Source: Micractinium sp. NFX-FRZ (taxonomy: Eukaryota; Chlorophyta; Trebouxiophyceae; Chlorellales; Chlorellaceae). From it: a DNA stretch of 64,000 nt. Under the pieces are notes generated by a model that did not search any database, had not been told where the DNA came from, and saw only the letters and a list, made by a program, of their open reading frames with translations. Position 1 is the stretch's first letter; every line of letters begins with the position of its first letter. Positions 4,002-58,200 of the stretch are shown one piece after another. The DNA lies in NCBI GenBank assembly GCA_029339195.1, contig JAPTJF010000207.1, forward strand, positions 38,208 through 102,207, in the 5' to 3' direction. The position numbers were made by a program, and so were the translations under genes.

Positions 4002-5873
4002 ATGCCCTGGCCCCGTCTCCCAGTTGCAGAGATGGACACCCAGGGGCCGTGCTGGCAACGTCAGCGCGCTGTTCTGAGCGACAGCACTGTATCCCCTGTG
4101 CCGACCTGCTCCCCTGCCGCCTCCCACCACGCCCTTACGCTCTCCGACGCATCCCACCACGCCCAGCCAAGCGGTGAGCCTGCCTGCACGGCTTTGGCGG
4201 CAGTTGCGCATCTCTGATCTGTGTGGTCCTGCTGATTAGCGTGCAGCTTGCTTCATGTAGTTGCTATTGCAAACCGCCAGCTGATCCACCTGGGTCGTTG
4301 GCCTAGGTCAGGGCCCGACGCCGCGGGTTCTGCCAGGGGGTGCCCCGCCTGCGCCCTGCATTTGTAGAGCCCCCGTTTGTAGAACGGCAAGGCGCTGACG
4401 ACTGCGCACGCCCCCTCACCCCACCCTCCCTGCAGCTGTAACCTCGGGGGTGGCCACACGCTGCCTTCAGGTCTACATGAGCAGCCTGCACGGCACCTTT
4501 GCCTGCATGCTCGCCAGGGTTGGCCTGGAGGGGGCGCGTGTGTACTACAGATGGCATGCCGACGATGCCAAGGTGCCTGCCCGCCTACCTGGCCCGCGCG
4601 CTTGCCTGCCCGCCTGCTTGCCTTCCCGCCCGCCCATGCCTGCGTGTCCCCTGCCCCGCCATCCTACCCAACCATGTGCTCAGCTCACGCCCCTGCCCAC
4701 CACCTGCCCCAGACTAACTGGCCACAGTCCAAGTGGCCCCTGCTCTCCAGCCTCCTGGGAGCCTCGCTTTTGCCGCACCCACCACCTGCCCGCCCCACCC
4801 ATTCTCCTGCACGCTCGCCTGCCCGCCTCATATGCCCACCTGCACACCCACCTGCCCGCTCGCTTCTCCACTCATGCCTGGCTGCAGTGGGCTGAGCACG
4901 TGGAGGGGCCCATTGTGGGTGCGTGGTGGGAGATGTCCCAGCACCTGCTGGCCCTGGCCAGCTCATCTCCCCACCTCGACCAAGACGGCTTCATGTGGCT
5001 GCAGGGAGAGTGCGGGCAGCCGCTGGTGCCCCCGCCGGCCAGCGAGCTTCCTATGGTCCCATGGCGCGCTGGGGAGGGTGAGTGTGTGGCTGGTGCTCCT
5101 CCAAGCGTGTGCTGCAGCGGGCCCCTCCCCCCCTGCTGGCTTGCCTGCCTGCCTGCCTGCTAGCCAGACCGGCCGTCCGCCAGCCTCCCTGCTGCACGAC
5201 AAGCTGCCTGCTCGCCTTCCCCCTGCCCGCCCATCTGCCCGCCTGTCTGCTGCTGAGGGTGCTCACACCAACCGACCCGCATCCTTGCCCTGCGCGCCCA
5301 CCTCCCTCCCCTGTAGATCCCTTCCTCACATCCCTCAAGAACCACAGCGCCGCCATCCGGCAGCACCTGCGAGCCACCGTGGTGCTGCTGACCAAGGGCC
5401 CCGGCCAGCAGACGGCCCACTACACTGCCGTGCCAGGGCCAGGCCAGTTTGGCTTCGTGATGCGGGATGACTTGGACAGCGAGGCAAAGCAGGTGATGAT
5501 GGTACCAAAACAACAATAAGATGATGTACATCACAAACACATTGAAGTTGTATGCCTGAAACATACCTTGGGCAAACGGGCAGGGGTTAGCTCTCTGGTT
5601 GGCCTTTCAGTGGCCCACTGCCTGGGGTGGGGCCGCCACAGAGCAGCACCGCGTGCCGTGCCCTTCTTACTCACGTGCCGGGCCTCGGTGCCGTGCCAAC
5701 CCATGCTGTGCTCCACCCTGCCCCCCTCTCTGCCCTCCCCCCCTGGGCAGATCATCGAGAGACTGGCCGGCTGCTTTGACCCAGGCAACTGCCACCAGCG
5801 GACCATCACTTTCTACCTTCACGGCCACACACAGCTCCCGGAGCTCCCGGGCACCGAGACCCATGTGGGGTAG
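4002..5873 (+). CDS. Hypothetical protein, 265 aa, family not recognised
   Basis: Five exons: 4002-4173, 4436-4572, 4888-5077, 5317-5492, 5751-5873; phases agree at each junction. ATG 4032 is a possible alternative start in the same frame. The protein is soluble-looking, without signal peptide or membrane segment. The first 57 residues are Ser/His/Pro-rich. The rest looks like a folded domain with Trp-rich segments (VEGPIVGAWWEMSQH), a segment HLRATVVLLTKGPGQQ, and a Cys/His-containing C-terminus (CFDPGNCHQRTITFYLHGH). I do not recognise the family and assign no function. Introns 2 and 3 are rich in CTGC/CCGC repeats. A TGTAA poly(A) signal lies 68 nt after the stop, which supports the 3' end. 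Confidence 0.6.
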
Positions 5874-6488: not shown

Positions 6489-6952
6489 TCAGGTGCTGGC
6501 TGCTTCCTGACGCACGGCAGCCAGCGCTTTGCACGCTTTGCGGTGCCCCGCCCGCCAGTCGGCATGGGAGCAGGCGGTATCTATGCATGTGTTCACGCGT
6601 GATTGACATGGCAGGGTGCTTGGTGACAGGGCAATGCATAAGCGGAGCGAGTCATCCGCCGGCAGCTGCGGCATGGCCAGACTGCTGTTGTCACCCCGTG
6701 CAGCTTCAGAAGATCCTATGGTGAGTAAGAAGAGTAAGTGAAGATTAAGAATGAAATTGCGCAAGGCGTGATGTGTTGACATCAACATGCTCACATTGAG
6801 TTGCCCGCCACCAACTCCGCTGCCCCCGGGGGTGGCGGCGGCGGGCTGTGGCCGTCGTGCAGCGGCTTGCCGTCGCACATGGCTGAGCAGCAGATGGACA
6901 GGCGGTTATGTGGGCGGGGGTTGAATGGTGCCTGATGGCTATCGGCTATCGG

Positions 6953-6995
<43 letters not shown>

Positions 6996-9900
6996 CCCGC
7001 CCGCCCACCTGCCTGCCCGCCTAACGCCCCTGCCGCCTTGCACCACCCACCCGTCCCCCAGGCTGCCCGCCGTCTCGGCCTGCGCCCTGATGTGCCAGGC
7101 GCTCTACTGCCACGTGGCGCTGGACTGGGCTCCCTGGGGGGCGCTCCCCGGAGAGGCGCAGTACCGTGTCACCCGGCAGCCGGCGCAGCGCTTGCAGCCG
7201 GCGCCCTCGCCCGCCGCAGCCCCACCACGAGCCCCCAGGTTGGCGCAGCGCAGGTAGGCGCACGCGCGGGCAGCAGCCACCTGTGCCCCCTCTACTCGCT
7301 CAGCGCTGGCCTGCTCCGCCTGCTGCCAATGAGCCTGCAGGGCCGCCGCCAGCGCGCGTGCATGCGGCAGGATGTGCCGACGCACAGCGCCCAGCGCCTG
7401 CGCCGGCGGGCTCAACAAGGCGGTTCTGTTGTCCACCAGAAGTGAGCGCCGTAGAGCCCCTGCCAACCGCTGAATCTCGGCCAGGTCACCGCCCGGCGCC
7501 GCCGCTCCGGCACCTTCCGCGCCACTGCTGCCAGCAGCGGGCACAGCGCCAGGGCCCCCGCCCTGCCGAGCATGCTGTGCACCCGGCCTGACTCCGCTGG
7601 AGGCGCCGGCCCCGCTGCTGCCCTCGCTGCTGCTGCTGCTGCTGCTGCTTGGTGGGGTGTTTTTTTCAATCAGCTCCAGGGCCCCGTCCATCAATGCCTC
7701 CATCAAGTTCAGGGCCGCCTCAAACACGTGATCAGCCTGCGGTGCAATCAAAGGGGGGCCAACCAACATTAGCACGAGTGCTCTGCAACACGACAAAATG
7801 TGCAGGCCTGCGGTGCTGGGCCTCGGCATGCTGCGGTCGGTTGAATCAATGCCCTGCTGCCCAGCTGCTGCTCTGCTGGCCGCCAGGCCTGCGCAGCGCA
7901 GCTCCACAGCCCTGCGGCCCGCTCAGCCCCGCTCCCATACGCACCCAACACACTCAACGTTCGCTCACATGGACGCGCGGCATGCGCTTCACAGCCGACA
8001 GAGCCACGCCCAGCATCTGGCCCAGCTGGCCGCCCGCCGCCAGCCAGGCTGCCAGGCGGGGCCCGCGCCGGGCCGCGCTCATCACTTGGTTGTACACCCC
8101 CGTTGCATAGACAGCACTGCCCTGCGCAGTTCCGAAGGATTGGGTGCATGTGCTTGGCGGTGAATGGTCATGCACAAGGGCAGGACGTTGCGGCGCGCAG
8201 GCAGGCAGCGCAGGCAGGCAGGGTAGCCATGCAGCACATGCATGCAGGCAGGCAGCGAGGCATCACGGGCATGCAGCGCAAGCAAGCTAGCATGCATTCA
8301 GAATGGGCTCGCACTCACCGGCGGCAGCCGGCTGTTGAAGCAGTCAAACAGGGCGGCCAGGTGGGGGCTGCCTGCCACGTGTGCAGGCCCCAAGCCCGCC
8401 GCATCTGCCAGGCTGATCAGCAGGTCACCCGTGCGGCTAGTGGGGATGCCTGTGAGGTCGCAGTGGGCAGCCGCCACTTGCACGGCCTCCCAGTGTGCGG
8501 CAGACATGGCTTGCAGGCGCCTGTAGGGGACGCAGGGCGGGCGGGCGCAGGCAGGGGGGAGGTGCGGGTGAGCAAGGGCCTTGTTGGAGGCGGATGGTCA
8601 CAATGTTAGGGGTCTTCACTCCCACTGGGTGCGTGGGGAGTGGCAGCGCCGGGGTTCGGCGCCAGAGCAGGGGCACGCCATGGCACTGCAGTGCAACACA
8701 CAGCGGAATGCGGACAGTGATGCACACCAGCATGTACAGCACGCACAGCACAGCGCAGCGGAACTGCGTGCCCAGCCCAGCGCAGCGCAGCGCAGCACGG
8801 CACGCGCCTGCTGGTGCGCGGCTGGGCGGCGGCGGTCCTCCTGGGATCTTCCAGCCGGACGCTTCTGGGCCCATACTCAAGGTGCTGCAGCAGCCTGGCT
8901 CCGCGCAAGGTTGCGGCCGCGGTGCGCAGCATGCGCTCCGTCCACAGCGGGTCGGCCAGCGTCAGGCAGTGGGGCTTGGTGGCGGCGGCCCAGCACAGCA
9001 GGCGGCACCCCGCAGTGTGCAGCTGCCAGTACGACGCCTGCACCGCCGCCAGCACATCAGGGGGCGGCAGGCGGTCGGCCCCCAGTGCCAGCTGGCTGGC
9101 GGAGCCGCAGGCACGGGTGGCAAACAGGACCAGGTTTTGAGCGAGCCCCGTGGCGTGCGCCTGCTGCACCGTGTGGCGGTGGGCCGCGCACGTGCGCTGC
9201 CGCTGCGCCGCGCCGAGCGACTCCAGCAGGGGCAAAGCGCGCAGCGCGGACGCGGCGGTGCTGCACCACTGCGCAGCATCGGCGAGGCTGGCCATCAGCG
9301 GCGTGGGCAGCACGGCACCCTGGGCGCTGCCGGAGCTGTCGTCCCTGCGGGGAGGAAAGGACATTGGGGCAAAGGGAGGGGGAGTGTTAGGGTGCTATGG
9401 CAGAGCAGGGGGCAGGACAGGAAAGGATGAGACATGGCATGCGTTGGACCCAAAGCAAGGAAGCCTGGAAACCCGGGTGAAGCAGTGGGCACAGCCGGCA
9501 AAGGCGGGCGGGCACGGCGGGCGCAGCAGGCACAGCGGGCGCACCGGTCCCAGTAAAACTGCAGCAGCCTGCAGGGCAGTATCCAGGCCGCGACCAGCTC
9601 GTGCACAGCAGCCTGCACCTCCACATCCGCCGTCAGCTGCTCCTCCCCGTCCGCCGCCAGCGCCGCCACGTCGGGCAGCCTGGCCATCATGGCCAGCAGC
9701 TGCAGCGCCACCTGGCGACGCTGCGCGCTGGGCTGGCTGTCCACCTCGTGTGCATGCTCAGGGCACAGCTGGCCGCACAGGCACTCAAAGAGGCGGGTGA
9801 TGGCAGCTGCCTGCGCAAAGTGCGCCATGGGAGGCAGGCCAGGTGGGGCCGGCTCCAGAGGCACAGTCTGAACGAGCTCCGCCGCAGCAGCCACTGCAGC

Positions 9901-14700: not shown

Positions 14701-15002
14701 GATTACCACACACACACACACACACTGTCCTGCTCCCTCCTCCCACACACCGCCCTCCCCCACAACTTCCGCGCAGCTACCTGGTGCTCTGTACCCAAGC
14801 CAATTGCCAGGCTTGATGTAACTCCTGCGCCCTGTACATACCCTGCTCCCTCCTCCCCCACCCACCCACCCCATTCACCCACCCCATTCACCTTCCTCGC
14901 AGCTACCTGGTCCTCTTCCTCAAGTTCATTGCCAGCGTGGTGCCCACCATTGAGTACGACTACACCCTGGCAGCCGGAGGGTCGGGAGGGGGCGAGCAAT
15001 AG
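11770..15002 (+). CDS. ATG3: Autophagy-related protein 3 (E2-like conjugating enzyme)
   Basis: Eight exons: 11770-11865, 11992-12130, 12330-12664, 13228-13326, 13656-13715, 13894-13977, 14316-14407, 14903-15002 (334 aa). The sequence follows plant ATG3 throughout: [47 protein letters not shown], an acidic Gly/Ser linker (the flexible loop), [46 protein letters not shown], then the active-site motif HPCQHANVM with catalytic Cys278, and [23 protein letters not shown]3 receives ATG8 from ATG7 and passes it to phosphatidylethanolamine during autophagosome growth. Intron 7 contains a degenerate copy of the start of the last exon (14777-14816), which could act as an alternative end. Confidence 0.96.
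14777..14821 (+). other. Cryptic alternative terminal exon of ATG3 with stop and TGTAA
   Basis: A copy of the final-exon acceptor and first codons follows a CGCAG acceptor. Spliced to exon 7 it would read [13 protein letters not shown] and stop at TGA 14814-14816, with TGTAA directly after (14817-14821). It is a degenerate tandem copy of the 14893-14940 region. Use would remove the conserved C-terminal helix, so it is probably non-functional or regulatory. RNA data are needed to tell. Confidence 0.4.
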
Positions 15003-16763
15003 CGACACTGGCAGTGACCCAGCTGAGAGCGGGGCGGCTCTCAGTGTGACGCACGCTGGCGGCCGGCGGCTGGGGCGGCTGGCGGCTGGGCCGGCGGCCC
15101 TCCAACACATGCCAGGCTGCCCAGTCACCACTGGGTACGACAACAACGCTGTGGCGGCTGGGAATAGGCGCTGGGCATTGATGCAGCTGCAGCAGGCATC
15201 CAGCCGCTAAAGCGCCCCGGTGCCAGGATGCCCGCCTGCACCCGCCACAGCCTGTGCAAAATTGGCGGCAGCGGCAGCTGTGGCACCAGGCTAGCGGCAG
15301 GCCAGCAGCCGCCCGCCAGCTCTACGCCGGTGCTTCCAGCGGTGGCAGCATGCCCCCCACAGTAGCTAGTAGCTGGCTGGCTAGAGGCCGCAGGTGCTGC
15401 TGTGCGGCTGCACCCTGCTGGCAGCAGCCGGCACCAGCCAGCAGCCACCTTGTAGCACCCAACACGGCCCTGTACAATAGTAGCTAGCGGCCCCAGCCCT
15501 CCTCCCGAGCTGGCCGGGGCGGGTTGCTTTGTAGACTAGCACACCACAGGCGCCCTTCCTCCTCTGGGTTGTTGGGGCGCCGCCGTGTAACATGACATCG
15601 CTGTTGCACACGGCCTGCCAGCGGCTCCCACCACCACTACTGATCCCGCCTCTCAAGGTTTCGACACACAACTACGCCTGCATCTAACCTGTCAGCCCTG
15701 GTGGTCGCTAGGGGGGGTTACATGAGCATGTGCTGGAGGCCTGTGCAGATGAGATACTGAGGTATGGGGGCCAGGGAGGCGCGAAACTTTCCGCTGCCTT
15801 CCGGGGAGAGCCAGATTGAGAGGCGTGTGGGGTAGAATGGTGACACAGGAAGGCGGGCAAAGGGCAGTGGAGAGCCTGGTGCAGGCCTGCACAGCCACTG
15901 TGGCCCTCCTACCAGGTGGGGACACAGGCGGTGGGTGGCCCGTCACAGGGCTGCCGCCGATGAATGGCGCTTCCGAGGGAGCTAGCAAAGGCGCGTCTTA
16001 TGATTTTTCCGCACATCTTGAGGGGAGAGAAGGGTTGGCGAGGGCAGGGGCGGGGGTGAGAGGAAGTGCGCAACGTGACGTGACGTGTGGGGAGGGGCGG
16101 TGATGGGGGGACAAGACAGGGGGGAGGCGCAAGAGGGGGGGAAGAGAGGCTTGCGCGGAAGGTGCAACAGGCGACAGAGCACGTGACCGCGGCAGGCAGC
16201 AGTCGGGGGAAACGGTGATAAGAGAAAGATAAGTCGTAAGCAGAGTGGGTCTGGAGCAATAAATTGGGCAGTTTGCTACGGAGTGGAGGGGGGCATGCGG
16301 CGGGGGAAGAGGGGAGTGCGCACTCACAGGGACGCTCATAACCAAAGAGGGGAGGCATAGCCAAGGCAAGATTTGCCTTTGGCGCCAAACTCGTTGGAGA
16401 GAAGGCATGAAAGGCGGGGGGAATAGATGCATCTATCTAGGGGGGACGCAAGGCAGAGGGAAGACAGGAAGCAGGCACGCAGGGTGTGACGGCAGTCGAC
16501 TTATAAAAAGGCAACAGGTGGACAGGCTACAAATGAAAAGAACAGTCATTCTGCAGATCAGGGTTGGCTGGTTCGAGCCGTATTCGTTTCAGTCATTGTG
16601 CGTGGGAAGGGGGATGAAGCCAGGATGTGACGGCCCATCCAAGCTGGCCGGCCAGCATGGCGGGCTGCTTGCCACTCATCGGGTGCTTGGCCACTATGGG
16701 TGCATCTCGCGCTGCCAACAACCAATGTTCGACGCCCCAGCGGCGCACAGTGGCGCCCGGCGC
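15003..16763. other. Convergent intergenic region with 3' UTRs
   Basis: No conserved coding segment is visible. A TGTAA at 15586-15590 (+) is 584 nt after the ATG3 stop and may end its 3' UTR. TTACA at 15718-15722 reads TGTAA on the - strand and may end the gene at 16764-18708. This implies long 3' UTRs that nearly meet. Confidence 0.5.
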
Positions 16764-23589: not shown

Positions 23590-26500
23590 ATGCAGCACGA
23601 CGAGGTGGGTGGGCAGAGTTGCCGGCGGGCAAGTGCGCATGCCGCAATGCTGGCGCTGGCAGCTCACGACGTTTCTCTTTTTCTGCCGCTTGCAGGTCAT
23701 CTGGCAGGTGATTATGCACGGCCACTGCAGCTTCAGGGCCAAGACAAAGACGCAGAACTTCTGCCGCAACGAGTACAACGTCACAGGTGGGCGGCAGCGG
23801 CGGCGCTGGCGGCAGCGGCGGCGCTGGCGGCAGGCAGTCCGGCAGTCTGTTCAGCTCTGGCTGTCCTGCCGTGTGTCACAGGCATCACATTGCATGCAGC
23901 ACTGCTGCCAGTGTGGAAGCCCAGCCCAGGCGGATGCAGGCATCTTGGCAGCGTCCGGTGCTGCCGTTGAGGCAGGCAAGCAGGCAAGGCGCAGTTTGCC
24001 CCACCACGGCCCCTCGCCCCCATTGCCATTGTGCAGGCCTGTGCAACCGCAGCAGCTGCCCGCTGGCCAACAGTCGGTATGCGACCATTCGCGAGGAGGC
24101 GGGGCGGTGCTACCTATACATGAAGGTAGCTGTGGGCGGGTTGCTGCGCTCTGTGTTCCGTCAAACGAAGCGTGCTGCCTCGTGTTTTGAGTAGCGGCAG
24201 CGCGGATGGCGGACTGGGCAGGCAATGCGGCATAGCAGTGGGTCGCAGGCTTGCTCCAGCTGCAAGCCCAGCTGACTTACCCGCCGGCCTGCTCACCGCG
24301 CTGTGCTGCCCCTGCCGCTTGGGTGCAGACCATTGAGCGTGCGCACACCCCCAAGAACATGTGGCAGAAGATCCGGCTGAAGCGGCAGTATGTCAAGGTG
24401 GGGTGGGCAGCGGGGGCGCAGCAGCACACAGGGCGGGGGCCAGCACAGGTGGCGGGAGGTGGCGGGCACAGCGCACCAGCGGGGGGCACATGTTGGCTGG
24501 AGCAGCAGCGTGGTAGCGCCATGGGGGGGCAGTATGCGTGGTAGCGCCATGGGGGGGCAGTACGCTGAGCTGAGGGGGATGCTGTCCACAGCAGCGCATA
24601 CGGAGGGAAGGCGGTGTGCTTGGGCGGCAGACAAGCTGACTGGCAGGGCGTTGGGCCGAGGGTCCAGGGCTCTGGGAGTGGGGGTGCCACTGGGTTGGGA
24701 GGCAAGGGGGGCCAGTCCACGCCACCTTGTTGCAGCCCGCTCGGCAGAGCCCCCGCTGCTGCCCCACTGCCGCTGGCATCGCGCCACCTAAGCCATCCAT
24801 CCTTCACTCTCCTGAATCCTTTCAACCAACCATGCATTCATGCATGCATACAATTAGTCACTCGCTCCTTCACCCGGCATGCGATCGTTGATTCATGCAA
24901 TCATGCATTCATTCCTCTGCAGGCCCTGGAGCAGCTGGACGAGCACCTGGCCTACTGGCCCAAGTTTTTGGTACACAAGAACAAGCAGCGGCTCACCAAG
25001 ATCACGCAGTACCTGATGCGCATGCGCAAGCTGCAGCTCAAAGTGCGGCCCAAGCTGGTCACCATGCCGGCACGGTGAGCAGGGCGGCAGGGCGGTGGGT
25101 GATGGGTAGGGACAGCGCTGCGGGCGGGCGGGCAGGGGCGCGGGCAGTGAGCTGAAGGGGAGACGCCAAGGGGCGGTGGAAGGGGCAGTTTCATGTGGAC
25201 GGCGGTCGGCTGCCTGGGCGGCGCCCAGTGCAGGCAATAGCTTTGCTGCCGCCCCCATCCCTGCCTCGTCCTCAATCTCAAGCACATTCTAAAGCACCGC
25301 TCTCCGTTCTCGTGCAGCAAGGAGAAGCAGCTGAAGCGCAAGGAGGCCAAGGCGGAGACGGCCGCCAAGCTGGACCAGGCCATTGAGAAGGAGCTGCTGG
25401 CGCGCCTGCAGGTGCGTGTTTGCTTGCTTCACATTCTTCATATGTTTCTGGGGGTTGCGCCTGTGTTGCTCGCTGCTATTTGAAGAAAAGAAGGCGGTAC
25501 ATGGCGCGCCCGGGTGCCTCTTTGTTGCATGCGATCCATGCTTTGAGCGTCTCTGGAAGTCCAGACAGCAAGAGCCAGGGTGATGGCGGCAGACAGCTGG
25601 GCGGCTTGTGCCATCGCAGGCTGCCAGCGGCGCCGGGGTGCCTGGCCTGCCCCTCCCCCTCGGCCTCATGTTCCTCACGCTCGCCTGCGCCCCGCGCCTG
25701 GCCCCCCCCCCTCCCTGCCTGCAGAGCGGCACCTACGGCGACATTTACAACTTCCCGCAGAAGCAGTACGAGGCGGCGCTTCAGCAGGTGGGTGCGGGAT
25801 GCCCGTGCGGCTGTTACCAAGGATGATGGCGAGGCGGCGGACCCCACCAGCCCACCCTGCGATGCTTCCTTGCTGATCTCTTGCACTCTCATCGACCTGT
25901 GCAGGGGGAGGTGGAGGACAGGCCCGAGGCGGCCCCCGCCAGCACGCCCCTTGAGTTCTCTTCATGACTGCCTGCTTGTTGTCATGAACTTGTGCAGGAG
26001 GAGGTGGAGGATGAGGACCAGGAGGCGGCAGAGGCGCAGGAGGAGGAGGAGGCTGAGATTGAGGAGTATGTGGAGGGGGATGAGGAGGAGGAGGAGGAGG
26101 TGAGCGGGCACGGGGCGTCGTGCGGGGTGGTGCAGGGGTCTGGCGCGCTGGGTGCTCACGTGGGGGTATGAGAAGGGAGAGGTGCGCAAGGAGGCGGTGG
26201 GCGGTGCCTGGGGTCCGAGCTTGCTTAGGCTTTGTGCCAGCTAGAACGACGGGGCAGGACATGGCAAGCGTGGATGTGGAGGAGGGTGAGGGTGAGGGTG
26301 AGAAGGACGAACATTTTAGCTGGGGCTGGGGCAGGAGCGTCTGGGGCGTGGCAAGCGTGGCAAGCTTGGTGTACTGCCCTGGGCATTGAGTCGAGGAAGA
26401 GGCTACTGGAGAACCAACACGAGAGCGTGAGGCGCCAGGGTTTTGATGTCCCCCGCCCTTGCCTTCCGCACCCCTCCTCTGACTGCCCGCAGGATTATGA

Positions 26501-28376: not shown

Positions 28377-30406
28377 TCACACCTCCAGCTCAGCCAGGTC
28401 CTCCCACACAGCCTTGGGCACATGCGCCAGGCTGGCAAACTCGGGGCCCAGGGCACTGCAGGGCCAGGGGGCAGGTGGGCGAAGCAGGTAGGGTGGGGTG
28501 AGGCGGGGTGCAGGGCGGCGAGAGGAGGCAGCAGGGGCAGGCGGGCAGGGGGGGCGAGGCGGGGTGAAGGGGGGCAACCAGGGCAGGCGGGGAAGTGGGC
28601 GAGGCGAGGGGAGGCAGCGGAAAGGTGAGCGAGGCGAGGTGAGGTGGTTGCAGGCGGGGCGCGGCAGGGTGCAAGCCAGGTGGCTGGCACGCCACTCGCT
28701 CGGTTGCACGCACCCGAGGCATTTGGCCCACATGCGCGTCTCGTAATCCAGAACCGCATCTGCCACACCGCTGGCAGCCTTGCTGCTGGAGGAGCCGGAG
28801 GGCAGCAGCTCGTCGTCACTGCTGCTGCAGCCCTCCGGAGGATGAAAGAGGTCCAGAAAGGAGGGAGACGCGCTGCGGGGTGGGGGCGTGGGAGGCGCAG
28901 GGCGGGTGAGCAGCAGGCATGCTCCAATTTGCAGCAGGCAGCGCGTGTTGACGACGGCGCTGCACACCGGGCCAGCACTGGGGCACGCTGGCAGCAACCA
29001 GGGGACACACAGGAAGCCCCTGCGCCGTTGTGACGCCTCGCCCACCCACTCACTGACATATCTGTGAGCACACATCTCATGCACATCCCAGGTGCCACAA
29101 CCCCAGCTGGCCCCGGGGGGCCAGCCGCCGTCCGCCACTCCCAGCATACATGCGCGAGCAGAGCGTATGCCTAAATACTGGTCCACCTGACGATAAGGTA
29201 TTGCAAAGGAGGTGCTACACTTGGTGCGCACCTGGCGACCGCCCAGGTGCCGCGCGCAACCTCAGCCTCCAGCTGGAAGGGGGACCACAGGCTGCTGCCC
29301 ATGCAGATGCGCACATCATCCGGCTCCAGCGCCAACTCCTCAAACAACTCCTGAAGAAGAGGGCAGCGGGCAGGGGGCAGCATGGGGCACTCAGCAGGGC
29401 GTGGCAGGTGAAGGCGGCGGTGGGATGCGCGGGCAGCGGCCGACACGAGAGGCGCTGGAGGCAGGTCAGCTCACGTGCTCGTCTGCAGCACGCTGGGCCC
29501 GCCCACCTGCGCCAGGTCAGCATCCTCCAATGTACCGCCCCACCCGTTCAGCCCCTCCCACGACAAACAACCCTCCACGCATGCTGTGCGCCAGCACCCA
29601 CTGGCCCCCCATCCGCCATTCAGCCCCTCCCACGACAAACAACCCTTGCCGCATGCCGTGCGCCAGCACCCAGCAGCACCCCTTCCGGCGGCCGGCCCAC
29701 CTGCGCCTTTTCCAGGTCAGCACCCACCACCAGGCCGCCCTCCAGCCGTGCATCATCCCCCGCCTCGCTGGCAGACTCGGCCGCACGGGCAGCCGCGGCA
29801 CGGGCGGCCTCATCCGGGGCGTCTGCCGGGTCCAGGCCCCAGGGAGGCAGCACAAGCTGGCCTCCCAGGCGCGGCCTGCAGCGTGCGGCACAGCGGGGGG
29901 TGCGTTATGGAGAGGTGGGAATGGTGTGCATGACAGTCGGGCCGCACAGCACAGCGTCGTGCCAGACAATAGGAGTCTGAAACGGGGGTTGTGCGCCGGT
30001 GCGGCAGGTGGCGCAGGGCGGGGCAGGCTGTGCGGCGCAGGCACGCCGCGCCCAAGCTCTCGTGTGGCCTGGCTCCTCCTCGCCCGGAAGGCACGCCTGC
30101 AGTGCAGCCTAGGGCAGTGCAGCACGCTGGCAATGCGGCAGGCAGGCGGGAGCATGGGAAGCAGGCAGCACGCACCTCTGGTGCAGCACCTGCACGCCTG
30201 GCACAGGGCCGCCCCGGAAGAGCGGGCTTTCCTGGAACACGCCCATCAGCTCTGTCACTGTGGGGCTGCCGCTGCCGCTCCCACTGCCGCCGCTGCTGCT
30301 GCCGCCACCGCTGCCCGCCTCTGCCGCGGCGCCGCGCTGCCCAGATGCCCTGCCGGTGCCAAACAGGCTGCTGGCGGAGCCAGCGGCGTGCAGGCTGCCC
30401 CGCCGC

Positions 30407-34016: not shown

Positions 34017-37000
34017 ATGGCAGGACACGGCCACCAGCGGGCCAGCACGAGCCACCCGCTGTCGCCCTCCCTGTCTGGGATGGGCAGCGGGATCAGCGGT
34101 GTGTTCTCCGATGACATGGAGGAGCTGGCACTGCTGCCCAGTGAGTGAGGCCTCTTCCATGCGGGGGGTACCATCGGCGTTGCGGCGTTGCGGCGTGGTG
34201 CGTGCCCCGCCTATTCAAGGGAGTCCTGCAGCTGCAGGGCTATGCTCACACCACCCTGCTTCATCTGCATTCTGCCGCAGGCCATCACCCCAAGAGCCCC
34301 ATCCACAAGCACTCGTTCAGCGGGCAGCTGGACAACCAATGGCGCGCCTTTCAGGTGGGTGCTGGACGCTGCAGGGGCCACTGAATCCCTTGCATTGCTT
34401 AAACCCCAGCCCCTCCTGCCTGGTGTTCGTGACTGGAAGAACACCATTATACCTGATGCCATGCAATTCCCCACTGTCCCACGGGGCTCCCCTGTCACCC
34501 CACCCTATCTCAACCACCCGCCCACCTCTCAACTGTTGATCAGGTCGCGATGTTCAAGCCTGCGCCCGCGGTGGTGTTGGAGGGCGGGGAAGCCGGGCAG
34601 CCCACCGATAGCAGCCAGGAGGATGAGCCATTCCTGACAATAGAGGATGTGAAGCCCAGCGAGGCCACAAACGAGTGGCTCAGGGTGGGAATCGGCCTGC
34701 TCCCCAAGGTGTCCTGGGGTGAGTGAGCAGGGCAACAGGGGTGTGCTAAGCCAGGGAAGGGGCCTGGCATGGCGGCGCCGTGCTGACATCAAGGCAGCGG
34801 GTCAAGGCAGCAGGGAGCGCGCATGTGGGTGACAGCAGGCAGGGGCAACTGCACGACTTCCCTCCTCGTCTCCGCTCTGCTGTGGCGCTGCGCCCAACCT
34901 CTGGCTCCTATGTTTGGTGCCGTTCACTCATGCAGGCTGGCTGCCCTTCTGCTTCTCCTTCCTGGGCTTCTCCGCCGCGCTCAAGCTGCTGCTGTTCATC
35001 ACGCTTTTCAGGTGGGTGGGTGCAGCACCCCTAGTGTTGCTGCGGGTGGGCTGGTGCATGCCTCTTCTTCCCTTGCGCAATGAACAAAGTGAACGGGCGA
35101 GAATGTGATGCGCCCCTGCCCCTTACCCTAGCTACCCCGCCCCTGCCCGCCCCGCCGCCCCACTGCCTGCCCGCCGACCGCAGCGTGTACAGCGCGGCCA
35201 TATTGTACCGCCTGTACCAGCATTGCGACATCCAGGGGCGCACCAGCCTGGCGGACATTGGGGAGGCGGCCTTTGGGCGGCGGCTGGGGCGCAACATGGT
35301 GGTGCTGCTGGTCCGTGCTGTGGACGTCATGCTCCCCATCGTCATGCACGTCGGTGGCACACGCTTCCTGCAGGTGGGCAGCGTGCTGCTGCTGCTCTTC
35401 TGTGCTGCTGCTCGGAGCTTCTGCGCTGCTGCTCTGCTGCGCTGCTGCTGCTGCGCCGGTGCCGTGCGGTGCTGGTGCTGGTGCTTTACTGTGCGCTCGG
35501 ATTCATGGCTGGGGGTAGTGCGCTGTGCAGATCTGAGCTGGCGCTGCTCTGGGTTGGCCTGCCCCTTGGCTCAACACTCCTGGCGGTGCTGCTGCCATGC
35601 AATTGACACGCTGCCTCTCATGTAGCACTCCCCACCTCTGTGGTTCCCCCCCTCTGGCTGGTGCAGACTTGGCTGTTCTACTCCACCGACGTGTGCCTGC
35701 CCTGGATCAGCCTCATGTTTGGGCTGGTGGTGCTGGGCCTGGTGCAGATTCAGCGGCTGGGCGGGCACCCCGTGCTCGTGCGGGTGGTCCAGCCGGTGCT
35801 GACGGCCATAGCGGTGGGCGGCGCGCTGCTCAAGCTGCAGCTGATGCACATGCAGCAGAAGCGGGAGGGGGCTACGTCGCCAGGGGCCCTGGTGAACAGC
35901 CAGGGGAGCAGCGGCGGCGGTGGCGACCCCACTGATTTGCCCTACTTCTCAGGTGGGTGAATGGGGGAGGGGCTGCAGGGCAGGCCCTGCAGAGGTCGCA
36001 CACCACAGAACGGCACTGTGCTGCGCGGCACCACGGAACCCCACTGCCGGCTTTGGAGTGATGGCGTGGTGTGCGCCGTCCTGTGCACACGCGCACCTGC
36101 ATGCGTTGGGCGGGCCTGCGCCAACCCTCCATTCTCCTCCCACCCGCCTGCAGACGCCGTCATCGCCGTCATCCAGCTCATCTCTGCCAACTACATGGGA
36201 CAGCACGTGTTCATGGAAGAGATGAGCGGCATGAGCTCGCCCTCCAACTTCCAGCACAGCACCGCGTGGGCGCAGGTGGGGCTGGAGCTGTGGAAGCGGC
36301 TGCACAGGGCGGCTCGGCCAGGCGGCACAGCCAGGCGTGAAGTTAGCCGGCTGGTCAGCTGGTAAAGCGCTTGTTCAGGGCCACGTCGATGACTGACTGG
36401 ATCGTCCAAAGTGACGGCCCTGCCTGTTGCCTGCAGGTGTGCACGCTACTCTTCAACCTTGTCGTTGCGGTGGCCACCCTCCGAGTGTCGGTAAGTGCAC
36501 ACTCTGGGACTCACCTGCCTGGCCAGCTAGTGCTTGAGGCGGCTGACAGTTACATTAGCTGCTTAAAGGCAGCTGACCAGCATAGGCCCCCTCTCCACCC
36601 CCCACCCCCCGGCCGCCTGCAGACGCTCAAAGTGCGTGGTTTCATCTCCTTTGCCTTTGGACCAGACCTGCTCTCCCGCCTGGTCAACTTTGTGATGTGG
36701 CTGCTCATGACAGGTGCGGTCGCATGCTGTGCTGTCAACAGCAGCTGGGCGGCTGCAGCCCTGGGCATGAGCGGCCTTGTGGGGCTGCACAGCTGGCCCG
36801 GGCTACTGAGTTCACCTGGCTGCATTGAGCCGTGCCCCCATTGCACTCAGTGCTATTTGCGCGGCTGCTCCCTCTGCAACTGCGCAGTCAAGTACGTCAT
36901 TGCCCTGCACCTGAGCACCAAGGCCCTGCTGCCGCGCCTGCCTCACCTGCTCATCAGCGTGAGTGACGAGTCACGCCGGCGGGGTATCGGGGCGGGGGCG

Positions 37001-37833
37001 GGGTCAAGCTGGCAGCTGGCACGGCACCTGCATGGCTGGCAGTGGCGGCGTGAGCACTTGGGCACAGCGCCGCCCGCACTGCCGCTACCGTCCTGCGTGT
37101 CCAGCAGCCGTCACCTGCAAGTGCGTGTACGATGTGTCAAGCCGTCTCCACCTGCCTAATGCTGCATGCAGTGGTTTGACGACCCAGACGGCGTGGATGG
37201 GGATGTGCGCATCAAGCCCCGCCAGCTGTGGCTGCTGTGCAGCAGCACAGTGGTGGTGGCCAGGTGAGCAGCAGGATGCCGCTGCCTGCCTGTCACACTT
37301 GCTCGCCGGCGAGCCTGCTAGGGTGTCGGCGCATGCTCGCGATTTCTGGAGCTGGCTTCCCACCCCACTGGGCCCTTGCGCCTGCCCTCCTCCCCACCCC
37401 TGCAGCTTCCTGGTCTCCGGCACGTTTCCTCACACGTTCATGTACCTCTCCGGCCTGCTCACCTCGGTGTGCCACATCCCCCTGGCATACACGCTCCCCT
37501 GCCTCTACTCACTCAAGCTGCTGGTGAGCGGATCGGGTCGGCCTGCATGCACGGGGGAGTTGGGCGGGGTGCTGTGGCGCAGGCAGGCGCTTGTTGGCTG
37601 CCCCCTTGGGACGCCCACACTGGGTGACGCCACTTCTTACACCCCAATGCCACCACCACCCTGTGCAGAGCAACCGCATCACAGCGCTGGAGTACACGCT
37701 GAGCACCACCGTGATCCCATTCTCCGTCATCCTGTCGCTGCTGGGGACGTGGGCATCCCTGTACCACATGGCGCTCAAGTGGGGCAGCTCGGACCGCGGC
37801 GGCAGCTGGGGCTGTAACCTGCTGCACGACTAG
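34017..37833 (+). CDS. Amino acid transporter, AAAP (amino acid/auxin permease) family
   Basis: Thirteen exons: 34017-34140, 34281-34354, 34544-34718, 34936-35011, 35184-35373, 35667-35952, 36154-36275, 36437-36490, 36623-36713, 36888-36958, 37172-37263, 37406-37523, 37669-37833 (545 aa). A soluble N-terminus of about 115 residues with Ser/His clusters (phosphorylation-type) precedes roughly ten membrane segments. Family marks include RTSLADIGEAAFGRRLGRN after the second segment, IQLISANYMGQH, the C-terminal pair TVVVASFLVSGTFPHTFMYL and IPLAYTLPCLYSLKLL, and the last segment TVIPFSVILSLLGTWASLYH. Such permeases move neutral or cationic amino acids with protons across plasma or vacuolar membranes; substrate cannot be told. 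An unusually long hydrophilic loop (residues 250-280) is Gly/Ser-rich. The only ATG upstream in frame is 34017. Confidence 0.88.
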
Positions 37834-38075
37834 CGCTGCACGGAGCCGCGAAGGCTTCTCTTGAGAGCGAGACCTGTGCGAATTATATTTCGTGCTCGTG
37901 GTTCGGAGTGTTAAGATTTGCATTTCAATAATCTAAATGCCTGAGCGCCCCCGCGTGCCGCCGCCGTGCTGCGCCATGCTGTGGTGGCCAGGCTCTTCTC
38001 TGCTGCTCTGCCCGCCTGCCCAATCCTTCTTGACGATCCATTTATCAATCGGTGCTCGTCTGAAGTCTGGCGAGG

Positions 38076-40196
38076 ATGGGTTCGCCGCAGGACCGCTTGA
38101 AGTTGCTGGCCACCTCGTGGTCAATTGTGGCGGAGGGTTACGACGGCGTGTTTAGCCGCCATTTTAGACCGTGGCAGCTGGATACGATTGCTCAATTGCA
38201 GGCCACCCTGCCCGACAGCGTGCAGGGCTCAATAGCGGTTCCAGCGTGCGGGCCAGGTGCGCTGCCGCACTGTGGGATCCACGGGGTTGATCAGTGAGTG
38301 GACTTGACAACGCCGAGACCGCGATCAAGGCACCCGCTTCCCTCCAGCTGCGGCGGCCACCGCTGCCGCCGTCCCGCCTCCCGCCCACTCGCTGCTCTTC
38401 TGCTCGCCTGATTTTTACCCTTGCCCCGCCACAAACTCCCTCACCGCTCCAAACCCGGGCAGGCCAAGAACTACCGCTGCTGGCGGCAGCGTTCCCGCGC
38501 AGCCGCATCATCGGCATCGATTTGGCAGAAGGGATGGTTGCGGTGGCCCAAAAGCTTGTCGCAGCCCAGGGGCTATCCGACCACGTGGAAGTGAGGTGGG
38601 TGGGGGAGGTGCGCGTGCCAGCAAGTGCGAGGACGTGGGTGCTGCCAGGGGTTTGGCTGACCGCGCGTGCGCAACATCGGTGACGGCGCTGCATGGGCGC
38701 AGGGTAGGTCGCCCCCATCGCGCCATCTCTCCCAGCTTTCCCAGCACCATGAGCAGTGCTGTCTAAAGGCAGGCCCGCCCCCAAGGATGCCCCTGGAGCT
38801 GTGACGCCGCCTGCCTTGGCCACCTGCTTGTTCCCCTCCTGGATCTGTCAAACCCGCAGGGTTGGCGATGCCAGCCAGCTGGATGACCTGGCGCCGCTGG
38901 CGGCGGTGGTCTCCGTGTTTGGCCTGCAGCAGATGCCGGCGCCCGCTCACGTGCTGGCCAACTGGACGCGCGCGCTCAGCCCAGGTGTGAGGGCCTGCTG
39001 GCCCTGCAGCTTGCCGTGTGTGCAGGTGCATGCATGCCATGGCTTGCTTGTGGGCTCGAGCAGCGCGGGTGCGTGTCATCGAGCGTGCACAAACGAGCAA
39101 CGGGGCAGCTTGCCCACGGTGCCCACTCCATGCCCCAATGATGCTGTGCCCTTTGCTCCCCGCCCACCCCCGCGCCCAGGCGGCGTGCTCTCCGTCTGCT
39201 TCTGGCCGCAGAACGTGGAGGCGTCGGGCCCCTGGCAGCGCCTCACCCAGCTCACAGCCTCCTTCCGCCCGGTGCCCGACTGGGAGGCGGGCATCCCGGG
39301 GGCAGCGCTGGCAGAGGTGAGGCAGCAGCACGGTATCCCGCAGCTTTGCAAGCACCGCCCCGCCCCGCCTCCTCATTCGGTCCTCTGGGCTCCAGGCTCC
39401 ACCTTGTAGGATGGCCTCCTTGCTGTGTCCCCCATCCTGCCTCCCTCACTTCCCCACCCCTGTCCAACACTTCCTCTTCCTTCCCTCCACCCTTCCTTCC
39501 TTGCTTCCTGCCTTCCATCCTTGCTTCCTTCCCTCCTTGCTGCCTCCCTCAGGGTGCGGACCTGGTGCGGGATGAGCGGGTGGAGCACGGCATGGAGTGG
39601 GCCAGCGTGGGCGCGTTCTGGGAGGGCATGACGCGGGCGGGGCCCTGGCACAGGTGGGCGCCAAGCTGGCGGCAGTGGGGGGCAGGCGGGTGGGTGGGAA
39701 TCTGGCTGGCTGGCAGAGAGGATTTGGGCTCGGCGCGGGGGCACGGCGAGGCGGAGCACAGCCGAGGGGGCAGCTGAGCAGTCGGGCCAGCTTCGATGGT
39801 CATGGTGAGCCTCCGTGCATCTCTTCAGCACTCCCGACCCTGCCTCTCACCCACCGTCTGCCCCCGCCCTGTGCCCCCGCCGCCTGTCCCCTTTCCTCTG
39901 CGCTGCATGCTGTGTTGCCGTGAGCTGCGGCGGCTCTTGTTAGGAGCTTGCCCATGGCAGTGGCCCGGTGCCCTTGACTGGTACCCACCCACCCCCCCAC
40001 CTCATGCCCCACCCTCCCCTCCTGCAGCCGCCTGCTGTTCTATGGTGAGCAGCACATGGAGGATCTGCGGCGGCAGTTCATGGAAGCCTACCCACCTCCA
40101 GAGGCGGGCACCCCAGAGGAGCCGCTGCGCCACACCCCCGCGGCCCGCCTCGTCTGCCTGCGGCGCCGCCCGCAGCTGCCGCCCGCCGCGCTGTGA
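38076..40196 (+). CDS. Class I SAM-dependent methyltransferase
   Basis: Six exons: 38076-38256, 38463-38595, 38860-38984, 39180-39316, 39553-39653, 40028-40196 (281 aa), all GT-AG and in phase. Motif I is VPACGPGQE (residues 55-63), replacing the usual Asp-x-Gly-x-Gly core with ACGPG. The acidic residue that holds the SAM ribose is Asp80 in IIGIDLAEGMV. Motif II-like GDASQLDDLAPL and motif III-like region (HVLANWTRALSPGGVLSVCF) follow. The C-terminal half (WEGMTRAGPWH, RLLFYGEQHMEDLRRQFMEA) would form the substrate part. No targeting signal is obvious. The substrate (small molecule, quinone or lipid) cannot be inferred; the overall pattern is UbiE/type 11-like. Confidence 0.85.
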
Positions 40197-41593: not shown

Positions 41594-44500
41594 TCAGGCG
41601 GTGGCCTCCTCGGGGGCCATGCCAACAATCTCCTCGGCGGGGCGCTCCACCTTCTCGCTAGCGGCGGCGGCGGCGATGGCCTCGGCGCTGTAGTCGCCGT
41701 GCACCTGCGCAGAGGGGGACGTGTTTCAGGGGTGCCGTTGTTAGGTTGAGGTTAAGTGGTGGGAAAGCAGCCCAAAACACGGCAGGCAGGCAGAGCAACA
41801 CGCAACACACACACACAATGCATGCACAACACAGACACAGACAAGCACGAGCGGCACCCCCCTGCCCCGCCCCACTCGCCTCCATGAGCTTGTTGATGTC
41901 AAACTTGGGGGCGCGCAGCAGCTTGACCTTGCGCACAAAGGTGTTCTGCGGGGCGGGGGGGCACAGGGGGCGGGAGCGGTTCGGGTGAAGGTTGGTGCGA
42001 ACGTCCAGGCTCGGCTCATGGCGTGTTGCGCTGGGGCAGCGCTGCAGCCAGCTAGCCAGGCCATAGGCCCAGTTGCCGCACCCCCAAACACAGCCAGCAC
42101 AGCACTGAGTGAGGACCACACCGTGGCACGCCTCTCCACACGCTCGTGCACACACTCCTTGTCAAGCATGGCACAGGTAGGGGCACAGACGAGCACACAC
42201 ACACACACACGAGCCCGCCTGCGCGCCCCACCTGCAGCGGGTAGACGCCCTGGCACGCCTTCTCAATCTCCTTGCCAATGGCCTCGGGGATGAACTTGCC
42301 CACCAGCTCCTTCAGGTCGCACGAGGTGGCCTCCCGGGTCATGATCTCAACCATCTTGCGGCGGATGGTGCGGATCTGCGCCAGGGGGGCGGGCGGGCGG
42401 GCGGGCAGGGACAAGCAGTGGTGGGTTGCTGTCGTCAAGACTTCCTGGGTTCATGGGTTTGTGAACACCAACACACACACTTGGCATGGAAGGTCAGACA
42501 AGCCTGCATTGCGGCATCTCTCCCCGCGCATGCAAATCTTGCCCAGGAGGACCAGGGGGCCCTGTCACCGTGCCTCACCTGGCTGCTCTGCGCGTAGGCG
42601 GTCTTCTTGACCTGGCCGGGGCGCTTCTTGGTGAAGGAGATGCAGAAGAGGCGGAGGAAGTAGCCGTCAGTGGTCTTGACGTCCACGGTCGCCTCAATCA
42701 GCGTCTGCCACTTGCGCACCAGGGAGCGCAGCTTGTCGGTGGTCAGGTCCATGCCCTGCACAGCCGTTGAAAGGGGTGGTGGCATAGGGGTGGGGTGAAG
42801 TGCTCAGTGATTGAGTTAATCAATTGTTGCAAACAAACGTGGGATGATTGGATGGCGTCTGTGGTCAGCCCCATAGCCCCCTTGCAGCAGGGCTTGGCTG
42901 CCCCATCTGCCCCTGCCCCCATCCGGTGCCGCTGCTGCTGCTGCTTCCTGCAAACGAGCCCCCGCCCAACAGGCCTGCAGCCTACCACCCCAGGAAAGAT
43001 GGCTGGCCCCCCGCCTTGCTCACGTGGAACTGGGTCAGGCAGTTGCGGCCCTGCACATCCTCCACCCGCAGCTTGATGTTGCGGTACGCGTCCGCCTCGT
43101 TCTGCAGGGGTGACAAGGCCGGTTGGGGGGGTGCAGGAGGGAGGAGGGTCGGAAGAGGGCAGGGGGTGGGGAGCAGGGGGTGGGGAGGATTGTTAAGGGG
43201 CACAGGAGGGAGGAGGAGGGTGAAAAGAGGGCAGGGGGTGGAGGGCCCTCAGGGGGGGACCTCCACGATCCTGGCTGTGCTGCGCGCTGAGAGGTGTGCA
43301 GAGTGCTGAGCTGGCCATGCGCCGGTTCAGGCCCGTGCGCTGGCTGGCGGCTGGTGGCTGGTTTGGGCTGGGCTGGGCGGCGCCAGCTCCTAGCACCAGA
43401 CGCGGTGCTCAGCTGCTCCTGCTACGGCTGACCTGGCTGCCTGTCGCACTGAAGCCGTCGCCGCGGCCCGAGCAATGCCCCTCACGGCAGCGTGCCGCAC
43501 TGCAGCCGCCTGCCTGCCGACACCGGCAGGCCTCCCCACTGACATGCTCGGTTACCATTCCTCTCAATGACAGCTGCCACCCACCCACCCACCCTTGAAG
43601 GGCTCCCAGTCTGGCCTCCCCACCCCTGCAGCGCTCACGTTCCGCACGTCGGCCAGAGACACCTCCGCTGCATGTGCCTTACGCCACGCCCCTATTGGTC
43701 ACCACTTCCCCTCAGAATCCTACAAAACAAACGCCCACCCCCAGTGCTCTGCTGTGCAGCACTCACGTTCTGCAGGTCGGCCAGGGACACCTCCACCACG
43801 CGGCCCTTCAGGCCGTCGGAGGCAATCTGCAGGGGAGCAGAGGCAGGCGCACAGGCACACAGGCTGAGAATCGAACATGTGACACAGGGGCAGCAGCATG
43901 CCAGCGCGGGCGCTGTATGCAGGCGCATGAGCGCATTGCCGGCCGGCTGGCCATGCGGCAGTGCGGCAGGGGTTGAGCAGGCCCACACAGCCGCAGATAG
44001 GCTCACTTTCCGCCCCGACCCCGGCGTGCGGGTTGCCGAGGTGTGCCTGGCCCCCACTCTGAGCCCGCCTGTGCCATGTCCGGCACAAAGGTACCCTGCC
44101 GGCGTGGCCCCGGCCCCCACACGCTACATTGGTGCCACACCCACCTTGGTGCCCTGGGTGCGGGTCACCAGCGTCTTGCCCACGTTGCGGGTGTTGAACA
44201 TGCTGGGGGCCTTGATGTCATACCTGCATGGGCAAGGACAGAACGCCAGAGGGGGCAGGGCCAGGGGGCAGGCAGAGTGAGCGGGCGGGCGGGCGGGCAG
44301 TGCGGCGCGGCGAGGGCCAGTGTGCCCCTGGGCACGACGCCGCGACTGCCGCTGCAGACGCGCCAGGCTGCGCGACACACTCGCCCACTCTGCCTCAGCC
44401 TGGTATGCTGCTGCTGCACACGTGCCAGCAACACAGTGCCAGCTCCGAGCTCTTCCATGTGCCTACAGCCCCAAAATGGTGGCCTGGGCAGCCCACATAG

Positions 44501-47230: not shown

Positions 47231-53996
<6,766 letters not shown>

Positions 53997-55279: not shown

Positions 55280-58200
55280 ATGGCGGCCGGCCCAGATGCA
55301 GTGCTCCAGGAGCTGGAGCGCGGCGGATTTAGTGTGCTGGCCGCGGGAGTGGAGGGCCTGCGGCCACAAAAGGTGGGGCCACCATCACTGCGAGCGGTGT
55401 TACGCCCTTGCTAGCTGCCGTGGTGCCACCGGGAACCCAACACAGCTCAAATTTTGGCGGCAGTCACTTGCTGCCGGACGGTCGCAGCGGCCCCAACCCT
55501 GCAGCAATCAATTGCTTTGCTGCCCAACTGTGCCTCTCCCGCAGAACGAGCCCGTGCCCGGCGTGCTGGAGCTGCAGCAGCGCTACGCCAGAGTGCCCAG
55601 CAGCCCACTGACGGCCGCCTTCAACGGCAGCCTGCTCATCACTGCGCCGCTGCCACCAGACGGCACCGTTCAAGTGGCCGTCACCTTTGACATTGTGCAG
55701 GCCCCTTCTGCGTTCAGCCTGCCAGTCATGCAGAAGCGGCCATGGGACCCGCCCTTCCAGGTGCGCGGCTTGGGAGGGCCTTGCGCCGCCGCTGCAGCTG
55801 TGTGAGCCTTCGCATGGCGCCGCGGCTGTGCGGCTTGAACCGCAAAGCAAGTGCAAAGTGGGGTGTAGCCAGCTGGTTGTGCTGGACACAACTGCCCTCG
55901 TAGACATGCGCCCCAACTGAGACCGCCCCACTGCCCTGCCACCACAACACCCCGCCTCCGCCACCTGCTCCCGCCCCCACCTCCCAGCCAGCCCCACCGC
56001 GGCATCATGCTAGCACCCCTGCCATGCCACACCCCAGGACCCTGCCCTGCCCTGCCCAGCCCTGCCCTCACCCGCACCCGCGCCGCGCCGCCTATGTCGT
56101 TCTCACTCCTGCATCCCCGCTGCCGCCGCCGCTGCCCCTGCGCCCGCAGGTGCGCATGACGTGGCGCAGCACGCTGCCGCTGCAGTTCAGCACCACGGTG
56201 GCTGCGTTTGTCGCCGACGAGGCCGCCGTGCCCAGCATGCTGACCTGGCAGCTGCCCATCGCGGGGGACGCGGCCAAGGCGCTGCTGGAGCACCAGCAGG
56301 AGCGCATGGTGGTGCTCACACCGCTGGCGGGGGCCAAGCAGGAGCCTTTGGAAGGCATGGAGGGCGGCGGCGGCGGGTCTGCCGGCCTGCCGCCGGCCCC
56401 CAAGGAGCACTATGCCGAGGCGGTGTTCACCTTCACCAAGCTCCAGTTTGGGGCGCCCTCGTCCATGCGCCCCCGCTGGCTGGTGTTTGCCGCCAGCCTG
56501 CTGGGCGGCGGCTGCGTGTACAGCCACTACAAGGTGCGCCGGTGGGGGTGGGTGGCAGCACTGCCGAGGGTGGGGTGGTTGTTGTGGGGGCGGTGGGGGG
56601 CAGAGGGCGGGCCGTGGGCCGCTGGCGGCGGGGCTGGCATGGCGGCGGCGTGTGCAGCCGCCGCCACACGGTGGACAGGAGGGACGCCCAGGGCGGGGGG
56701 GCACGGCAGAGATGCTTTCAGGGAGGTGAGCGCCGCATCCCGCTGCCTGCCTGCGTGCACAAGCACTTGTGGTGGGTGATGACAGCATGGGTGGAAGTGG
56801 GTTGTGTGGAGCAAGTGATGTGATGTGATGAGAGGGGCCGCTAAGAGGGCAGCGGTGAGTGTGTGAGCGGAAGGGTGAGTAAGTGAACGCGTGCATGTGC
56901 AGGCGGCGCAGGAGCAATGTGTTCAGGGGGTGGCACGCGGGCAGGGCTGGGCGGGGGGCAGCGCATGGGAAGTAGTCGGTCGCAGGTTGGGGTGCACTGC
57001 AGAGGTGCTTGGAGTGCAGAGGAGCGAGTCATCATGTGACGGCACTTAGTGTGGAGGAGCTGACAGTCACACTCCCTCCTTGTGCCTCTGCCCTGCTGCC
57101 TGCCTGCAGGTGCCCACTGTTGTCATGAGCCGGCTAGCAGAGCAGTTTGAGAAGGTGAGACTAGGGGACAGCTTCTGAGGGATTGGGGGGGGGAAGGGTG
57201 GCGCCAGCAGCTCTTTCTGAGGCAGCCACGTGGCCTCTGCTGCGGGCCTGTCAGGCGTGCTGTGCTGTGCTGTGCTGTGCCGCCCACCTCTTCCATGCAT
57301 TCCCACCCCCACTCCCCGTCGCACATCCGTCACGCCCACCACCTGCGCCAACGCCGCTGCGCTTGCCCCACGCCCCGCCTGCCTGCCCTGCCGACCCTCC
57401 CCCCGGCCCCCACCCCCCGTCCTGCCCACCCCCTCTGCTGCACCCCCTCCCCGCACACAGGCCAAGGCTGTGCTGTGGGGCTCCCAGGACCCTCCCTCCT
57501 GCGACAGTAGCGTCATGAAGATGGACCACCGGCAGCTGAGGAAGTACATCAAGCGGTGAGGGCGGGGGGGGTAGGGCCGCAGCCGGGGGACGTCGTAAGG
57601 CGACCCTGAGGGGGGGCGCAAGGGGCGGGGGCTTGTGAGGAGTGAGGAGGGCAGGGGCAGCTGGAGGTTGGGTGCATAGCCCGCTTGTGTGTGGCGGTTC
57701 GCAGTCAACAGGCCCAGGGGGCGGCGCGCCGCGCCCCACGCATCACCCCCCCCTCGCCAACCCCTCCCTCTGTCCCACCCGCCTGCCCGCCGTGCGCCTT
57801 TCCCCCGCAGGGAGCTGCTGTCGATTGACATCCAGCGGGAGCCGACGGAGGAGGACCACCGGTACCTGGCGGCGCGCGCCGGGTTTGTGGCGGCGCAGGC
57901 GGGGGGCGGCAAGGGCGCGGCGCGCGCAGCGCCGCATGCGGGGGCCTCCCTGGAGGAGCTCACAGCCTTCAAGCAGTGGTTTGCGGGGTGAGGCGGGCGG
58001 ACAGCAAGTCGGGGCGGTGGTGTGTGCCATTGGGTGGCGGGTGGATAGTGTGGGATGCGAGGCCAGGGCGGGCACCCCCCGGGCGTGCAAAGCAGTGGTC
58101 AATGGGGGTGGGTGGCGTGATGCAGAGGACTTGCTGGCAGGCGGTGATGGGCAGTGGCATGGGCAGCGGGGAGGTTTGCAAAGTGGTCAAGGGTGGGCAA

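Follow-up and report, generated by a model that had tools for sequence, protein, structure and literature searches.

Copies of exon edges in the introns of a Chlorellaceae genome: tandem duplication across splice junctions as a probable route of intron growth

Genes of the window and copies within their introns

The window, i.e., the whole 64-kb stretch of DNA analysed here, carries genes encoding ATG3, MAK16, S3a (eS1), an AlgH-like protein, FtsH and an acyltransferase; Pfam backs ATG3, MAK16, S3Ae, AlgH-like, FtsH and acyltransferase. The scan also took in 194,387 bases, in 21 further stretches, of the 66-Mb Chlorellaceae genome (838 contigs) to which the window belongs, which makes 258,387 bases in total, with zero N. 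Among the 120 matches listed for the ATG3 protein, that of Micractinium sp. CCAP 211/92 is the nearest (80%) and that of Chlorella variabilis is near (77%).

Genes were modelled by a self-trained hidden Markov model whose seed was a set of FtsH sites read by hand, and the models were checked against the hand-read FtsH model and the Pfam matches of six proteins. Before counting, one false FtsH exon was deleted by hand and exons shorter than 12 bases were merged. The modelled genes include 444 introns flanked by exons on both sides, 113 of them in the window, with a median intron of 237.5 bases and a median downstream exon of 103.5 bases. One model of the window (34080-40196), read by eye, resembles a transporter at its start and a methyltransferase at its end; it probably corresponds to two genes fused by the gene finder.

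Table 1. Exon-edge copies and related repeats in the window (positions, spacings and lengths in bases)
Feature	Position	Strand	Original or compared segment	Spacing	Remarks
ATG3 intronic copy, acceptor site and exon start	14763-14818	+	exon 14903-15002	126	score 30
ATG3 last exon, original of the copy 14763-14818	14903-15002	+
MAK16 possible copy, exon start and acceptor	25889-25933	+	25982-26026 (exon 25998-26099)	93
AlgH-like gene, 72-base tandem repeat inside an intron	29544-29687 (29544-29615/29616-29687)	-			starts 13 bases from the donor
S3a (eS1) intronic copy, exon end and donor	43627-43666	-	exon 43767-43826	128	score 41
FtsH second copy, unit of exon end	48534-48598	-	exon 48766-48910	107 further	donor GT reads GC
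FtsH first copy, exon end, donor and intron start	48641-48705	-	exon 48766-48910	120
FtsH copy, exon start and acceptor	50240-50265	-	exon 50048-50171	92
FtsH copy, exon start and acceptor	50688-50772	-	exon 50519-50625	about 113	exon score 30
FtsH copy, exon start and acceptor	51096-51124	-	exon 50906-51029	94
FtsH copy, exon end and donor	52255-52291	-	exon 52377-52575	117	weak, score 29

An earlier note on this DNA had described, in the introns of several genes, degraded tandem copies of an edge of the adjoining exon and of the splice site there. The ATG3 and S3a cases hold (Table 1), but the interval then given for the former runs to 15590 and overshoots the end of the ATG3 model at 15002. 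For FtsH, the copies are confirmed but not their number: five introns carry them instead of four, with scores of 62, 41, 33, 30 and 29, and two of the five, at 50688-50772 and 52255-52291, are weak. Despite its weak exon score, the copy at 50688-50772 has the best intron arm of the acceptor side, above the 1% null. The segment 48534-48801 consists of three copies, each made of an exon edge, a donor and the start of the intron. In FtsH intron 3, a false exon (53449-53526) has a good acceptor (CAG then GCTGGTC) and might be a further decayed acceptor copy.

Other cases from the same source were not upheld. The MAK16 copy is plausible by eye but not significant by itself, as 5 of 391 unrelated introns score no lower against its GAG-rich exon; this case was masked out of the exon-versus-own-intron count. 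The AlgH gene had been proposed to carry an exon-edge copy, but its repeat is wholly intronic and includes no exon edge. Likewise, the acyltransferase piece taken for a relocated tandem copy is a dispersed partial gene copy, lying about 4.4 kb downstream of its match (2527-2797 vs 6878-7177; 271 aligned bases, 92% identical).

Frequency and anatomy of the copies

The last or first 120 bases of each adjacent exon were compared with the intron and matches scoring at least 28 were accepted, exons from other loci against the same introns serving as the null. An adjacent-exon copy was found in 55 of the 444 introns (about 12%, or about 1 in 8), for 1.8 introns expected. These introns contain 57 copies, of which up to about two are expected by chance (1.85 from other-locus exons). 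Upstream exons match their own intron in 31 of 444 cases (null 0.98) and downstream exons in 26 of 444 (null 0.87). Reverse complements of adjacent exons gave 0 matches in 888 comparisons with their own introns, against 57 in 888 for the direct orientation; non-adjacent exons, two to four introns away, matched in just 7 of 2050, and exons of other loci matched introns at the null rate only. In an ungapped diagonal self-scan of the window (lags of 30 to 800, simple repeats masked), 8 pairs scored at least 18, whereas the means of three kinds of local shuffle, with 10 replicates each, were 0.1 to 0.2. Exon-edge copying is real and extends beyond the window; the excess over controls that the earlier note had put forward as a check is found against shuffles as well as other-locus, inverted and non-adjacent exons. 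Some copies were modelled as exons by the finder (e.g., in L003 at 788), so that the counts may be low.

The spread of the copies is very uneven. They are present in 16 of the 22 sequences. Eight of the 57 copies fall in the 113 introns of the window, and among these the copy at 56667 (score 28) is doubtful. Copies occur in 10 of 23 introns of the L005 model and in 5 of 19 of the FtsH model, while 23 of the 42 gene models examined have none, and this variation between loci is beyond chance (0 of 2000 permutations reach the observed value). At the gene level, no correlation was found between copy density and codon bias (rho 0.21, p 0.18, 42 genes). The genes richest in copies look conserved by eye, which makes a detection bias likely; judged by eye, copy-rich L005, L012, L020, L019 and L002 may encode a P-type ATPase, a kinase, an alpha-SNAP-like protein, a phosphoglycerate mutase and a deacetylase-like protein. 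The locus L016 (G000:C560:30001-32946), included in the exon-versus-own-intron count and excluded from the intron-internal repeat scan described below, shows tandem repeats about 609-684 bases apart and 94-99% identical, each with exon-intron structure; it is presumably a polyubiquitin gene with introns in its units.

The copies share a common anatomy. The match starts at most 3 bases from the splice junction in 35 of the 57, for 3.3 expected if it were placed at random in the searched part of the exon. Among the 51 copies scoring at least 30, 40 lie at a spacing of 80-146 (mean 110.4, SD 16.5), which is close to the units of about 85-125 bp proposed earlier although the main class is wider; 10 others lie at 164-235, some being second copies in arrays, and a doubtful one at 52. 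In this main class, the exon part has a median of 46 on the donor side (n=20) and 38 on the acceptor side (n=20). The intron part, obtained by subtraction, has a median of 73 on the donor side (range 44-102, n=20) and 67 on the acceptor side (range 52-84 except one of 14, n=20). The spacings show no excess of multiples of three (13/14/13 modulo 3, 13 being multiples), which rules out coding-frame selection on spacing. One copy profile drew on 40 of the 57 copies.

At the extrapolated position, 22 of the 31 donor-side copies retain GT or GC, and 12 of the 26 acceptor-side copies retain AG. The intron arm is homologous above the 5% null in 22 of the 57 copies (16 of 31 donor-side, 6 of 26 acceptor-side) and above the 1% null in 6 donor-side and 2 acceptor-side copies. 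Three-copy arrays are seen in FtsH and, by eye, in L010 and L020. L020 contains a 63-base array (5277-5454) whose units have about 10-12 exon-edge bases and then GT; this unit is the shortest junction unit found and lies outside the 51 copies scoring at least 30.

Intron growth and the origin of the copies

The median length is 328 bases for introns that contain a copy and 232 for the others (p 6.6e-7). When the spacing is subtracted, the median of the former falls to 210 (p 0.08 against 232), which supports that copy-bearing introns are longer by about one unit, as the intron growth put forward in the earlier note implies. Part of the difference may come from detection, longer introns offering more room for a match; despite this effect, the cross-locus null is near zero on the same introns. 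The tandem duplication invoked in that note is likewise supported, by the intron-arm homology (22/57 above the 5% null) and by the three-copy arrays. On the other hand, intron gain, which it mentions, is not supported in the Rogers sense: the distance to the opposite end of the intron is 5 bases or less in just one of the 57 copies, which scores 28, and no convincing Rogers-type gain is found among the 57. Four copies beyond the far intron end are copies that the gene finder called small exons. The aligned parts are 75% to 100% identical, a range from which we infer, and only infer, that the duplication process may be active.

We favour, with a rough probability of 0.58, the explanation that recurrent tandem duplications of about 80-150 bp straddling splice junctions, combined with a filter exerted by splicing, lengthen the introns. 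Segments of this size that straddle a junction would be recurrently duplicated in tandem, from staggered nicks or breaks with fill-in or from template switching as candidate starts. The exon would stay whole provided that, of the two splice sites, splicing picks the one still attached to the remainder of the exon. The spare copy, which decays without coding constraint, would then be stranded in the intron with its splice site; every event would add one unit to the length of the intron and repeated events would yield arrays of three. Junction duplications that include too little intron are missing, probably because splicing fails: on the acceptor side, the retained site would need its own branch point and pyrimidine tract, whereas a duplicated donor would leave two donors near each other and in competition.

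It should be noted that homology is shown for the exon part of every duplicated unit but for the intron part of only some. Against the splicing-filtered duplication stands the fact that 20 of the 26 acceptor-side copies have no intron homology above the 5% null. Among the 21 high-identity pairs (at least 0.93), homology takes up 80% or more of the spacing in 10 and less than that in 11; the copies are old, and introns diverge quickly. In L012 at 3011, the exon part has 40 identical bases whereas similarity in the intron is limited to some 25 bases. L003 at 788 presents the same picture, one that a young plain tandem duplication would not show. Such cases may result from a rapid turnover of pyrimidine-rich intron ends, from later replacement or from patch-like copying.

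Alternatively, mutation rather than a splicing filter could set the position and length of the units, if duplication is itself directed at exon-intron junctions and has a characteristic unit length near 110 bp, through a link with transcription, R-loops or nucleosome edges, for instance. This seems rather unlikely to us, although the spacing, with its SD of 16.5 around 110, argues for it, as do the repeats internal to introns. When exons are excluded, 40 rows of such repeats remain. Sorting by hand the introns with detectable intron-part units of at least 75 bases indicates that 11 of 12 carry junction-spanning units, for 5.0 expected at random (p 2e-4), the only exception being L007 (unit 158); moreover, 18 of 19 intron-only units (hand list) are shorter than 75 bases, versus 1 of 51 junction copies. 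Both lists, of spanning and of intron-only units, were compiled manually from few cases, and the p values are to be taken as guides. A mechanical touch test (at most 12 bases from the junction) gives 6 of 17 rows for units of 20-60 (2.5 expected), 4 of 20 for 60-160 (2.2 expected) and 2 of 3 for 160-400 (0.5 expected); it is weaker than the sorting by hand, which speaks against targeting, and homology enters the test only where it extends from the intron up to the junction. The hand sorting suggests that long units mostly straddle the junction, including about 45 or more intron bases. The lack of a correlation between copy density and codon bias reported above also argues against targeting, and a splicing filter acting on an ordinary duplication process is favoured. 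Should the preference for junctions persist in larger data sets, a mutation process linked to gene expression would be indicated. Tentatively, junctions could even be the targets of a duplication of about 110 bp tied to transcription or splicing that is, in this alga, a main source of intron length and a steady supply of second splice sites.

Another possibility, which we consider improbable, is that break repair copies the exon edge patch-like into nearby intron breaks, in which case the spacing would not be a duplicated unit. It would account for the high exon identity with little intron homology at L012 3011 and L003 788 and for the 11 of 21 high-identity pairs that cover less than 80% of the spacing. 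It sits poorly, however, with the absence of inverted copies (0/888), with matches that begin at the junction and include the splice site, and with clear full-unit tandem arrays; furthermore, random patches would not choose exon edges.

The retention of GT or GC in 22 of 31 copies and of AG in 12 of 26 could also be read as a sign that selection maintains the copies, as functional alternative exons or as regulatory decoy splice sites. The differences between copies and exons are flat across codon positions (0.148, 0.156 and 0.139 at positions 1, 2 and 3), and the 75 synonymous and 222 non-synonymous changes give a synonymous fraction of 0.253, versus 0.264 expected under the same change spectrum. 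This flat profile and the lack of synonymous excess indicate neutral decay of the copies, with no selection to preserve them as coding sequence. The flat profile also implies that few synonymous changes accrued in the real exons or that the frame of some models is wrong, which counts against the explanation favoured here. In addition, spacings are evenly distributed modulo 3, and the donor retention matches neutral decay at about 15% per site. Functional alternative exons are therefore rejected, and selection on the copies as exons or decoys appears very improbable. An assembly or haplotype artefact, to which a spacing close to short read length and copies without intron homology might point, is scarcely credible given the three-copy arrays and an identity of 75-100% with change spread equally over the codon positions, which two working haplotypes would not show, and gaps are rejected as a cause by the zero N in 258,387 bases.

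Comparison with known systems

Introner elements place one element in many genes and change intron content genome-wide. The algal copies differ from them in that each matches its neighbouring exon; matching of the introner type, i.e., to non-adjacent sequences, was looked for and is at the null rate for exons of other loci and at 7 of 2050 for non-adjacent exons.

In plants, short tandem duplications reportedly arise from the repair of staggered breaks, as described by Vaughn and Bennetzen in 2014 and by Schiml and co-workers. These duplications are likewise short, direct and tandem, so that the same kind of repair is a plausible source of the algal units; to our knowledge, no link between these duplications and splice junctions, or a unit length of some 110 bp, has been described. 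In the literature, no genome-wide class of junction duplications left in introns was found, a mention in the Chlorella variabilis genome paper or in Gao and Lynch 2009 being possible. In worms lacking BRC-1, the duplications reported in the available part of the source range from 1 kb to 1 Mb and are far larger than the algal units (PMC7368036).

Tandem genomic duplication is a described mode of intron gain (PMC3443670, PMC4974935, available in part). As far as the available part of PMC3443670 goes, this mode and the algal process share a tandem duplication within a gene, copied splice sites and an unchanged protein. However, an exonic segment becomes a new intron in that mode, whereas in the alga the unit straddles an existing junction and an intron already present grows, without a new one arising. 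The intron gain in a potato RdRp gene is closer, since the duplicated unit includes intron-exon structure with its acceptor; the available text of that paper also mentions an 83 bp duplication within an intron (PMC4974935). In potato, one gene is concerned and the second acceptor is used, which gives rise to a new intron and an exon piece (PMC4974935, same part), while in the alga many genes are concerned and the spare copy would be left inside the intron.

The tandem-duplication cases in the available parts of PMC3443670 and PMC4974935 are thus births of introns, and the one genome sampled here shows another fate of such duplications. In about 12% of its introns, a junction has been doubled and the superfluous copy is becoming part of the intron. 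This fate would make measurable the rate of splice-site duplication, the amount of intron needed for the choice of the outer site and the share of intron length that such duplications contribute.
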